This document shows positions 3,132 through 6,155 of a stretch of 40,470 nucleotides of DNA, piece by piece. Under the pieces are notes generated by a model. The model had not been told where the DNA came from, made no database searches, and worked only from the letters and a program-made list of their open reading frames with translations. The stretch comes from a virus. Within the stretch, counting starts at the first letter, position 1, and every line of letters starts with the position of its first letter. Made by a program: the position numbers and the translations under genes. The stretch spans positions 1 to 40,470 of IMG/VR virus record IMGVR_UViG_3300005529_000436. One strand, given 5' to 3'.

Positions 3132-4181
3132 ATGGGTGGTTTTACGAAACTGTTCTCCACCATAACCACCTCTACCGTTTGGATGGAGCCGGACCAGACG
3201 CGAATTGTTTGGGTGGCGATGATGGCAATGTGCGACCAGTACGGAAGGGTGATGGCCTCAATCCCTGGACTTGCTCACATCGCCAGAGTTCCAGTCGAGG
3301 CAACACGAGAGGCAATAGATCGCTTTATGGCACCTGATCCCGATAGTCGGACGCCGGACTTTGACGGGAGACGCATAGAGAAGATCGAAGGCGGATGGCG
3401 GCTGCTCAATTATGAGCGTTACCGCGAAGCGCGAAGCGCAGATGAACGACGCGAATACCTCAGAAACAAAAAGCGGGAAGAGAGGGACCGCAAGCGTCAA
3501 CAAAAACGTCAACAGGTGTCAACAGATGTCGCGCAAGGTCAACATAGTCAACCGCGGTCAACCAAAGCAGAAGCAGAAGCAGAAGCAGAGTTAACAGAAG
3601 ACTCACTACGTTCGTCTTCTTCCTCCGAGCTGCGCGATGCGCACTCGGAGCCGGAAAATCCGCCAAAGCTCAAGGGCACATTGCCGTTGAACGATGGCAC
3701 AGACTTCCCCATCACCGACGACCAGGTGAGCGAGTGGAAGGCGCTGTATCCAGCCGTTGACGTAATGCAGCAGCTGCGCCACATGAAGGGCTGGCTTTCC
3801 GCGCATCAATCGCGGAGAAAAACACGCAAGGGGATTTTGAAGTTCATTCACAGTTGGCTCTCACGGGAGCAGGACAAGGGGAGGAATGTACCCGATGCAG
3901 CAACTCAGCGTAGTAGCGGCGCAAGCCAGCGGGTCAGCGCTAATCAGGAGGCCATCCGAAGAGCGGCTGAACGACGCGGAATTTTCGATATTGACGAAGC
4001 TCACGACGCAGATGGTCACAGCGTATCCGCACCAGGAATTGGGGGATTCGCTGGAGATGTTTCTGCGGGGTTTCGAGATTCTGACGGTTCGCCATGGCCT
4101 ACCGCGCGTAAAGGAAGCGCTGCAGGAACTGCTGGTCACACCGGGCCGGAAATTCTTTCCCCATCCATCCGAACTCGCTGA
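3132..4181 (+). CDS. Phage replication initiator, lambda O-like (helix-turn-helix N terminus)
   Basis: 349 residues. The N-terminal 100 residues (GGFTKLFSTITTSTVW, MMAMCDQYGRV, PGLAHIARVPVEATREAIDRF, GGWRLLNYERYRE) match the winged-helix front end common in phage replication initiators, in which a segment like WLLNYxxYR ends the domain. A low-complexity, highly charged linker follows (KKREERDRKRQQKRQQ, then AEAEAEAE encoded by a 6-bp repeat at about 3566-3588). The linker DNA carries the iteron-like repeats described separately. Near the C terminus, RVSANQEAIRRAAERRGIF resembles tails of other phage replication proteins, so I keep the long frame even though its last 287 bases overlap the next gene. 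In lambda the O protein binds iterons inside its own gene; the same arrangement is inferred here. Confidence 0.7.
   Translation: MGGFTKLFSTITTSTVWMEPDQTRIVWVAMMAMCDQYGRVMASIPGLAHIARVPVEATREAIDRFMAPDPDSRTPDFDGRRIEKIEGGWRLLNYERYREARSADERREYLRNKKREERDRKRQQKRQQVSTDVAQGQHSQPRSTKAEAEAEAELTEDSLRSSSSSELRDAHSEPENPPKLKGTLPLNDGTDFPITDDQVSEWKALYPAVDVMQQLRHMKGWLSAHQSRRKTRKGILKFIHSWLSREQDKGRNVPDAATQRSSGASQRVSANQEAIRRAAERRGIFDIDEAHDADGHSVSAPGIGGFAGDVSAGFRDSDGSPWPTARKGSAAGTAGHTGPEILSPSIRTR
3496..3562 (+). repeat. Six GTCAAC iterons inside the O-like gene: candidate replication origin
   Basis: GTCAAC occurs at 3496, 3508, 3518, 3538, 3547 and 3557. Spacings are 12, 10, 20, 9 and 10 bases, near multiples of one helical turn. 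The copies fall in different reading frames, so the protein does not explain them. Directly after comes a purine-rich stretch (about 3563-3601, with repeated GAAGCA and then GTTAACAGAAG). Iterons in the middle of the O gene followed by a purine-asymmetric region is the lambda ori plan. Origin function is inference. Confidence 0.6.
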
Positions 4182-4416
4182 GGTTTTGACAGACATGCAG
4201 ACGAAAGAACGGCAGCAGTTTTTACGCGATCATCCATTCACGCCATGCGGTCAGTGCGAAGACGGCATGGTGTTCGTAGACGCAGAAGGCAAGCCCTGGG
4301 ACTGGCGGAAAGGCGGCTACCGCGCAGCGAAAGAGTGCGACTGCAAGGTGGCATGGCGCAACCAGACAAAAGCATTCACAGGGAACGATGGAAAGGCAAA
4401 GGCGGCAGGGGAATGA
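3895..4416 (+). CDS. Candidate helicase-loader-like replication partner with C-terminal Cys cluster
   Basis: I choose the ATG at 3895 because the strong SD AAGGGGAGG (3876-3884) lies 10 bases upstream; an ATG at 3886 in the same frame is only one base from that SD. This gives 173 residues. The middle (LEMFLRGFEILTVRHGLPRV, then PGRKFFPHPSELAEVL) resembles proteins that follow phage O-like genes and act like lambda P in loading the host helicase. The C terminus has CGQC and later CDC, likely a zinc site. No Walker A motif is present, so it is not a DnaC-type ATPase. The first 287 bases overlap the O-like gene in another frame. It overlaps the methyltransferase start by ATGA. Confidence 0.55.
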   Translation: MQQLSVVAAQASGSALIRRPSEERLNDAEFSILTKLTTQMVTAYPHQELGDSLEMFLRGFEILTVRHGLPRVKEALQELLVTPGRKFFPHPSELAEVLTDMQTKERQQFLRDHPFTPCGQCEDGMVFVDAEGKPWDWRKGGYRAAKECDCKVAWRNQTKAFTGNDGKAKAAGE

Positions 4417-6155
4417 GGAAGAAGATTTTTGCTGCGGACTTGTTCTGCGGCGCGGGTGGAACTTCGCAGGGCCTTTTGATGGCCGCTAATGAGTTGCGGG
4501 CAGACCTGGAACTTATCGCCATCAATCACTGGAACGTCGCAATCGACACGCATTCGGTAAACCATCCCTACGCAAAGCACCTATGCACTGGGCTGGATGA
4601 AATCGGCGACCCGCGCAAGCTCGTTCCCGGTGGGCGCCTGAACCTGCTTTGTGGTTCTCCCGAATGCACCCATCATTCCGTCGCCCGCGGCGGCAAGCCG
4701 ATGAGCGACCAGTCCCGTTCGTCCGCGTGGCACATTCTGCGCTTCGCAGAGGCCCTTTACATCGACAATCTCCTCATCGAAAACGTGCCGGAGTTCCTGT
4801 CATGGGGACCGCTGGGCGTGAATGGCAGGCCGTTGAAATCGAAGCGTGGCCAGCTTTTTGAACAGTTCATCGCTTCGCTTCGTGCTCTCGGATACAGCGT
4901 GGAGTGGCGTGTTCTCAACTGCGCCGATTATGGCGACCCGACGACCAGGAGACGGTTATTTATCATTGCCCGACGCGGGAACAAGGCAATTCGCTGGCCT
5001 GATCCGACGCATGTTCCTGCAACCCAGCTTTCGCAGGACGGGCTATTTGCAGATGAACGCAAGCCGTGGCGTTCAGCCCGCGAGATCATAGACTGGTCGA
5101 TTCCGTCAAAGAGCATATTCGACAGAAAGAAGCCCCTTGCGGATAAGACGCTGGCCCGCATTCAAGCAGGGCTGAAGAAGTTCTGCGGCCTGGATGTTGA
5201 CCTGAAACGTTGCTTCACTGAGGACCTGCGACCGTTTCTTGTCGTCTTTCGCAATCATCAAGACGCGCAATCGATCGATGAACCAGTTCCAACGCTCACA
5301 ACAATAGGCGCGAATGTGGGACTTGTCGAGCCTTTCATCATCGGGGCAGGCGGTCCTACCCGTCATGGAAAACCGCGTGGACTGAATGAGCCGATGCGAG
5401 TGGTGCTTACTCGCAACCACTCGCACCTGGTGCAGCCGTTTGTCATGCAGACCGACCAGACCGGCAGCAATGGAAGCTGCGTCAAGTCTGCTGATTCTCC
5501 CCTAATCACCCTTGTCACTAAGGAAAATACGGCGGTAGTCGAACCGTTTATCGTTCCGCAGGGGCGATGGAATGAAGCGCGCCCGGTAGACAGACCCATC
5601 GACTCCATCACGACGACGAGCCGCGGCGTCGGCCTAATAGAACCATTTCTCACGCATTTTCGTGGCGATCACGCAGGTAGGAGCGACGGGGAAAAGCGCA
5701 GCAGTTCTCTGAATAGTCCGCTACCGACACAGGACACCAGCAATCGCTTTGGGCTGGCAGAACCATTTGTCGTCACCGTGAACCACGGCGAAGGGAGTTC
5801 GCCACGCTCTGCGCGCAGCGTGGACGAACCCATGCCGACAGCGACACAGAAGATCGGTGAAGGATTATGCCAGCCGTTCATCATTGCCTACTACGGCACA
5901 GATCAATTTGCATCGCCCGATGAGCCGCTGCAAACGATCACCACGAAAGATCGTTTCGGATTGATCGAAGCCGAGATTACACACTATCGCCTTGACATCC
6001 GCTTCCGCATGCTTCAGCCGCGTGAGCTGGCGCGGGCACAGGGCTTCCCCGATGAGTATATTTTCACCGGCAATCGGGAAGCTGTTGTAAAGCAAATTGG
6101 CAACGCCGTTCCGCCGAATACAGCCAAAGCGCTCATCAGCGAGGTTCTGGCATGA
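4413..6155 (+). CDS. DNA cytosine-5 methyltransferase with long repeated spacer
   Basis: 580 residues from the ATG at 4413 in an ATGA overlap. Motif I is DLFCGAGGTSQGL (SAM binding), motif IV is LCGSPECTHHS with the catalytic Cys after Glu instead of the usual Pro-Pro-Cys, motif VI is ENVPEFL, motif VIII is DYGDPTTRRRLFII, and motif X is QIGNAVPPNTA. The enzyme should methylate cytosine C5 in a specific DNA sequence, probably to protect phage DNA from host restriction or to mark it. Between motifs VIII and X lies an unusually long region of about seven degenerate 33-40 residue units, each starting (E/Q)PF and containing a (D/E)EPxxTxT-like core; this is the target-recognition zone. No partner restriction enzyme is evident, though the next gene encodes an HNH nuclease. 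Confidence 0.93.
   Translation: MRKKIFAADLFCGAGGTSQGLLMAANELRADLELIAINHWNVAIDTHSVNHPYAKHLCTGLDEIGDPRKLVPGGRLNLLCGSPECTHHSVARGGKPMSDQSRSSAWHILRFAEALYIDNLLIENVPEFLSWGPLGVNGRPLKSKRGQLFEQFIASLRALGYSVEWRVLNCADYGDPTTRRRLFIIARRGNKAIRWPDPTHVPATQLSQDGLFADERKPWRSAREIIDWSIPSKSIFDRKKPLADKTLARIQAGLKKFCGLDVDLKRCFTEDLRPFLVVFRNHQDAQSIDEPVPTLTTIGANVGLVEPFIIGAGGPTRHGKPRGLNEPMRVVLTRNHSHLVQPFVMQTDQTGSNGSCVKSADSPLITLVTKENTAVVEPFIVPQGRWNEARPVDRPIDSITTTSRGVGLIEPFLTHFRGDHAGRSDGEKRSSSLNSPLPTQDTSNRFGLAEPFVVTVNHGEGSSPRSARSVDEPMPTATQKIGEGLCQPFIIAYYGTDQFASPDEPLQTITTKDRFGLIEAEITHYRLDIRFRMLQPRELARAQGFPDEYIFTGNREAVVKQIGNAVPPNTAKALISEVLA

Follow-up and report, generated by a model that had tools for sequence, protein, structure and literature searches.

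The DNA analysed here, referred to as the window, is a complete virus record of 40,470 bp (IMG/VR record IMGVR_UViG_3300005529_000436), and the features of interest lie in and around a predicted replication initiator gene that carries a row of short repeats within its own coding sequence (Table 1). The C-terminal part of the initiator shares 61% identity with a Ruminococcus phage protein annotated as a replisome organizer. This domain has six relatives among the loci collected in this study, and according to tblastn it also sits behind other N-terminal domains in Vibrio and Ruminococcus phages. The window protein has no Pfam match and does not reach the gathering score of PF09681; some of its relatives match HTH_36, and 7 of 62 match Phage_rep_org_N weakly (best E 0.015). 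A PDB sequence profile search with the initiator gave no match, and Foldseek with the initiator model returned weak matches of the winged helix-turn-helix (wHTH) type only, none with E <= 0.001. The AlphaFold2 model, built with 62 relatives, predicts a wHTH followed by a single continuous long helix.

Two further genes lie close by. A 176-aa ORF in another frame (3886-4416), for which no family was matched, shares about 296 nt with the end of the initiator gene, and a protein similar to its product is encoded at one relative locus only (L236). A cytosine-5 DNA methylase (4413-6152, Pfam DNA_methylase) contains a long insert in which EPF motifs are repeated. At the very start of the record (1-168) there is a 57-bp tandem repeat in 2.9 copies.

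Table 1. Features of the initiator gene, in window coordinates.
Feature	Position	Strand	Basis or remark
Initiator gene	3132..4181	+	349 aa; PHROG 1032 replication initiation protein, E 2e-5
Predicted winged helix-turn-helix domain, aa 1-93	3132..3410	+	AlphaFold2, mean pLDDT 87
Predicted long helix, aa 94-128	3411..3515	+	AlphaFold2
Putative reader segment ERREYLRNKKREERDR, aa 105-120	3444..3491	+	Mutual information and partial Mantel against the iteron word
Iteron 1, GTCAAC	3496..3501	+	
Iteron 2, GTCAAC	3508..3513	+	
Iteron 3, GTCAAC	3518..3523	+	
Iteron 4, GTCGCG, degenerate, in phase	3528..3533	+	Similar degenerate interior sites in relatives
Iteron 5, GTCAAC	3538..3543	+	
Iteron 6, GTCAAC	3547..3552	+	
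Iteron 7, GTCAAC	3557..3562	+	
Purine hexamer tract (AAGCAG)4.2, encodes AEAEAEAE	3565..3589	+	Putative unwinding/helicase-loading site
Conserved C-terminal domain, ~aa 173-259	3648..3908	+	tblastn

Phased words and a purine tract inside the gene

The array begins at codon 122, within the DNA coding for the end of the long helix and the linker, and its six exact copies of GTCAAC follow one another at steps of 12, 10, 20, 9 and 10 bp in two reading frames. The earlier note had described this cluster with its near-helical spacing and changing frames, and the description was accurate for the exact copies, but a degenerate in-phase seventh site, GTCGCG at 3528, had been overlooked. As this site fills the 20-bp gap, the steps become 12, 10, 10, 10, 9 and 10 bp. 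GTCAAC-type arrays in relatives also often contain one degenerate in-phase interior site (L018, L050, L086, L102, L103 and L116). Over the 40-kb window GTCAAC is found 22 times against 19.3 expected, and thus only the cluster is special. When the codons of the gene were shuffled synonymously 20,000 times, the array stretch held at most four copies of GTCAAC compared to the six observed, and in 200 shuffles no 6-mer formed a phased chain of more than three, again compared to six.

Searches of viral and genome contigs resulted in 256 loci including the window, 167 of which were non-redundant; in the genome contigs the window protein as a lone query found no match and the alignment as query found 13 loci. 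In 160 of the non-redundant genes, 6-mers recurred at 10 bp in 105 versus 15.6 in synonymous shuffles (z 24), with further peaks near 20, 30, 40 and 50 bp. Another set of peaks, at 6, 12 and 18 bp, stems from the hexamer tract. The detected arrays are always in the linker and consist of short words with a period of 10-10.5 bp, followed by the purine hexamer tract. What varies is the word: GTCAAC, GTAACG, GTGGAC, GTAGAA, GTAGAC, GTCGAC, GTTAGC, GTCAGC, GTCAAT, TGTCCC, GTCCGAC and more, most of them containing an initial GT. About one third of the relatives have no clear array by the detector used, and some of these are short or truncated genes. A GTCAAC scan of viral contigs gave mostly chance or low-complexity matches and no new GTCAAC-type helix. 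The window-wide count, the codon-preserving shuffles and the comparison with relatives had all been proposed as checks in the earlier note; the cluster alone was unusual, shuffling did not reproduce it, and its position and spacing of about 10 bp are conserved.

Repeats of this kind could be a mere by-product, either of a protein linker that is itself repetitive or of slippage during replication; the hexamer tract belongs to the simple repeats, and one relative (L044) has a 21-bp tandem expansion. However, a period of 10-11 bp does not correspond to whole codons and shifts the frame, synonymous shuffles abolish the array, and the sister genes L004 and L005 keep the words while their spacers differ. 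We therefore consider a by-product highly improbable.

The purine-rich stretch that the earlier note had placed downstream on the same strand was found as the hexamer tract, and the purine asymmetry in the window is mainly that of these 25 nt. A period-6 tract is present in 111 of the 160 family genes and starts a median of 10 nt after the array, and in 95 of 109 genes the N-domain is richer in GC than the 60 nt that follow the array. Alanine in the tract is encoded by GCA in 388 of 390 codons across the family versus 20% elsewhere, a uniformity which indicates that the tract is kept at the DNA level, although slippage too would make the codons uniform. At five loci (L018, L051, L109, L110 and L097) the hexamer repeat is on the opposite strand or codes for another dipeptide; in the first four the coding strand carries a pyrimidine-rich or inverted tract, with SVSVSV, PLPLPL or PTPTPT replacing AEAEAE.

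Helix residues and the array word

Of the protein columns, those at positions 113, 110, 109 and 114 of the window protein share the most mutual information with word bases 3-6, and together they make up one face of the long helix (i, i+1, i+4, i+5). The window protein has Y109, L110, K113 and K114 at these positions, and R118 nearby is invariant in 62 sequences. With core similarity controlled, aa 105-120 have a segment-wise partial Mantel correlation of 0.49, reached in 0 of 2000 permutations, and no segment of the wHTH exceeds 0.14. The four helix residues recover the three variable bases in 77 of 109 words when homologues with a core identity of >= 0.7 are held out, compared to a mean of 15 (maximum 34) for random quadruples of core columns and a mean of 10 (maximum 23) for quadruples from the HTH recognition helix, a comparison that somewhat favours the four helix columns since they were picked on the same data.

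The relationship can be written as simple rules. At base 3, K114 goes with C. At base 4, L, N, S, A, T or M at position 110 goes with A, K or Q mostly with G, and E with C. At base 5, R113 goes with C (43 of 43 readable), and K, W or Y at 113 mostly with A. By these rules L110, K113 and K114 of the window give GTCAA, matching the observed word, which is a matter of consistency and not a test because the window is included in the rule table.

It is usual for wHTH domains to contact DNA by the HTH helix, and it could be that the word is read by the HTH recognition helix also in this family, while the later helix hitchhikes through its linkage to the array, which would be strong as the two are near each other in the DNA. 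The HTH residues, however, fail to predict the word, and the recognition helix was rejected as its determinant; the covariation is confined to one helix face instead of extending over the whole linked segment. A natural contrast, likewise at odds with reading by the HTH helix, is provided by two relatives, L167 and L176, which have an identical 95-residue winged-helix core, yet arrays of TGTCCC and GTAACG, respectively. On either flank the two genes have a DNA identity of about 92%; only at gene nt 301-462, the stretch of the helix and the array, does it drop to 27-57%, and it is back to 100% at the tract. A similar pattern with lower background identity was observed between two PF09681 loci (L511 and L512). 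These comparisons suggest that helix and array have been swapped between phages as a cassette of about 160 bp. Since the reader helix and the array adjoin in the gene and would be exchanged together, like lock and key, the specificity may jump in a single recombination step that leaves the match unbroken.

The rules were also applied outside the family. Scanning for GTAACG arrays by the word alone brought up other initiators, for the most part PF09681 replisome organizers, and a helix of the same type was found upstream in 31 of 131 GTAACG arrays versus 0 of 129 GTCAAC arrays. PF09681 and the window family are distantly homologous in the N-domain and helix (hhalign probability 95, E 3e-8). The residue rules were fixed on the window family before 80 PF09681 loci were fetched, some PF09681 phages, phi187 included, having been examined already before this test. 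Of the PF09681 genes, 40 had both a recurring word and a prediction from the rules, and in 39 of them the predicted word ranked first, in a test that varied two of the three variable bases, mostly base 3 (GTAAC or GTCAC), in which a word ties with its reverse complement because both strands were counted, and in which genes with N at the base-3 position have no prediction and so were unscored. That the same residues work in the distant PF09681 argues further against reading by the HTH helix, as do some ORFs with helix and array that seem to be without the wHTH (L422, L428, L432, L453 and L467, with a reader-type helix and a GTAACG array; judged by eye, from short N-terminal stretches). We regard such reading as quite unlikely, and the word choice appears to be made by the helix after the wHTH.

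Genes for a helicase loader or DnaB come downstream in several named PF09681 phages. In Bacillus phage 031MP003 (L592) the helix predicts GTAAC, yet the initiator gene is without an array, and the densest GTAAC cluster (L592 24480-24600, 50 kb searched) is intergenic and distant from that gene.

A candidate origin within its initiator gene

We propose that the window contains an intragenic replication origin together with its own initiator, with phased words read by a helix, a tract and a swappable cassette of about 160 bp, and we give this reading a probability of roughly 0.8. Computation provides the array, its phasing and conservation, the covariation, the swaps and the out-of-family prediction; from these we infer binding, unwinding, helicase loading and origin activity. 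The long basic helix after the wHTH would read the 6-bp word GTnnnn, and protomers would dock once per helical turn via this helix, so that the initiators become aligned on one face of the DNA, docking being supported by the phasing and the covariation. By analogy with lambda and SPP1 gp38, the adjoining purine-asymmetric tract is probably the site where the strands are opened or the helicase is loaded, and the C-terminal domain probably recruits the helicase machinery. A replication origin had been predicted here in the earlier note, and the shuffles together with the layout conserved in relatives support that reading, origin function being argued from analogy and gene context.

The main alternative is autoregulation, in which the array would serve the initiator as an operator for repressing its own operon and would not be an origin. 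Initiators often repress their own genes, and mere binding sites would yield the same covariation. On the other hand, the array is about 360 nt inside the gene, away from the position of a promoter, it is followed by the tract, and the arrays known from within genes of lambda and SPP1 serve as origins (PMC7466680, PMC6316719), and we thus find autoregulation an unlikely explanation. As for the generality of the proposed origin design, we think it likely, with less assurance than for the origin itself, that a widely distributed phage initiator family reads its origin via a post-wHTH helix (in a few ORFs, it appears, with no winged domain before it), that a residue-to-base code links positions 114, 110 and 113 to bases 3, 4 and 5, and that reader and sites form one self-matching cassette.

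Replication origins are rarely mapped in phage genomes. If the rule holds, the initiator sequence could reveal the origin as well as its specificity word in many phages, among them uncultured ones, and the relatives would offer a natural series of matched protein-DNA pairs for studying how the specificity of initiator and origin changes jointly. The jump of specificity in one recombination step would also have a bearing on phage incompatibility, superinfection and satellites that mimic origins.

Comparison with known in-gene origins

The lambda ori design to which the locus had been likened in the earlier note applies to the in-gene layout, with the initiator N-domain, the iterons and the purine tract, but not to O-likeness in sequence, as the window protein has no detectable similarity to lambda O (BLASTP E 0.73). 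In lambda the iterons are likewise in the middle of the initiator gene O, between the N- and C-terminal domains, and are followed by a purine/AT-rich stretch (PMC7466680). As in lambda-type origins, the phased direct repeats are conserved with the initiator among relatives, and an AT-rich, purine-asymmetric stretch is beside the iterons. Lambda has four 18-bp iterons 20-24 bp apart, whereas the window has 6-bp words at steps of 9-12 bp, and a basic reader helix before the lambda iterons was looked for and none was seen. In SPP1, gp38 binds direct repeats inside its own gene 38 (oriL), beside an AT-rich unwinding element, and the genes of the helicase loader and the helicase come after gene 38 (PMC6316719). 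The window shares this in-gene direct-repeat design, a likeness based on the published description and not on sequence.

The same cassette of reader helix, GTAAC or GTCAC words and purine tract is present in PF09681 initiators (phi11, A500, SM1, phiEf11 and others), in which the words occur in both orientations, e.g. GTAACGTTAC, unlike in the window family, and the tract is of the GATA or GAACTA type. The cassette was not present in TP901-1 rep and 80alpha ORF20. We found no published account of the helix and array cassette of PF09681. Likewise, the literature search found no description of the helix-word rule, of phased words set by a post-wHTH helix or of an exchange of helix and array only, and nothing joining GTAACG with phage, repeats and replication, the search covering the listed titles and abstracts and few subscription papers.

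In the RepA_N plasmids pSK41 and pPR9 the Rep boxes bound by the N-domain are in the centre of the rep gene, the origin codes for the linker, and N-domain and origin are swapped as a module (PMC5703833). No RepA_N domain was matched in the window protein and its relatives by Pfam, and the N-domain had no plasmid match. The rep gene of pUSA03 does not carry the same cassette, its repeats being longer and no such reader helix being visible by eye. The RepA_N swap comprises the entire N-domain and the origin, about 500 bp, whereas in the window family it would be the helix and the array alone, about 160 bp. In-gene origins and the swapping of an N-domain with its origin are thus already known from lambda, SPP1 and RepA_N (PMC5703833), and what is apparently new here is the short helically phased words, the seemingly readable helix-to-word code and the swapping of helix and array alone.
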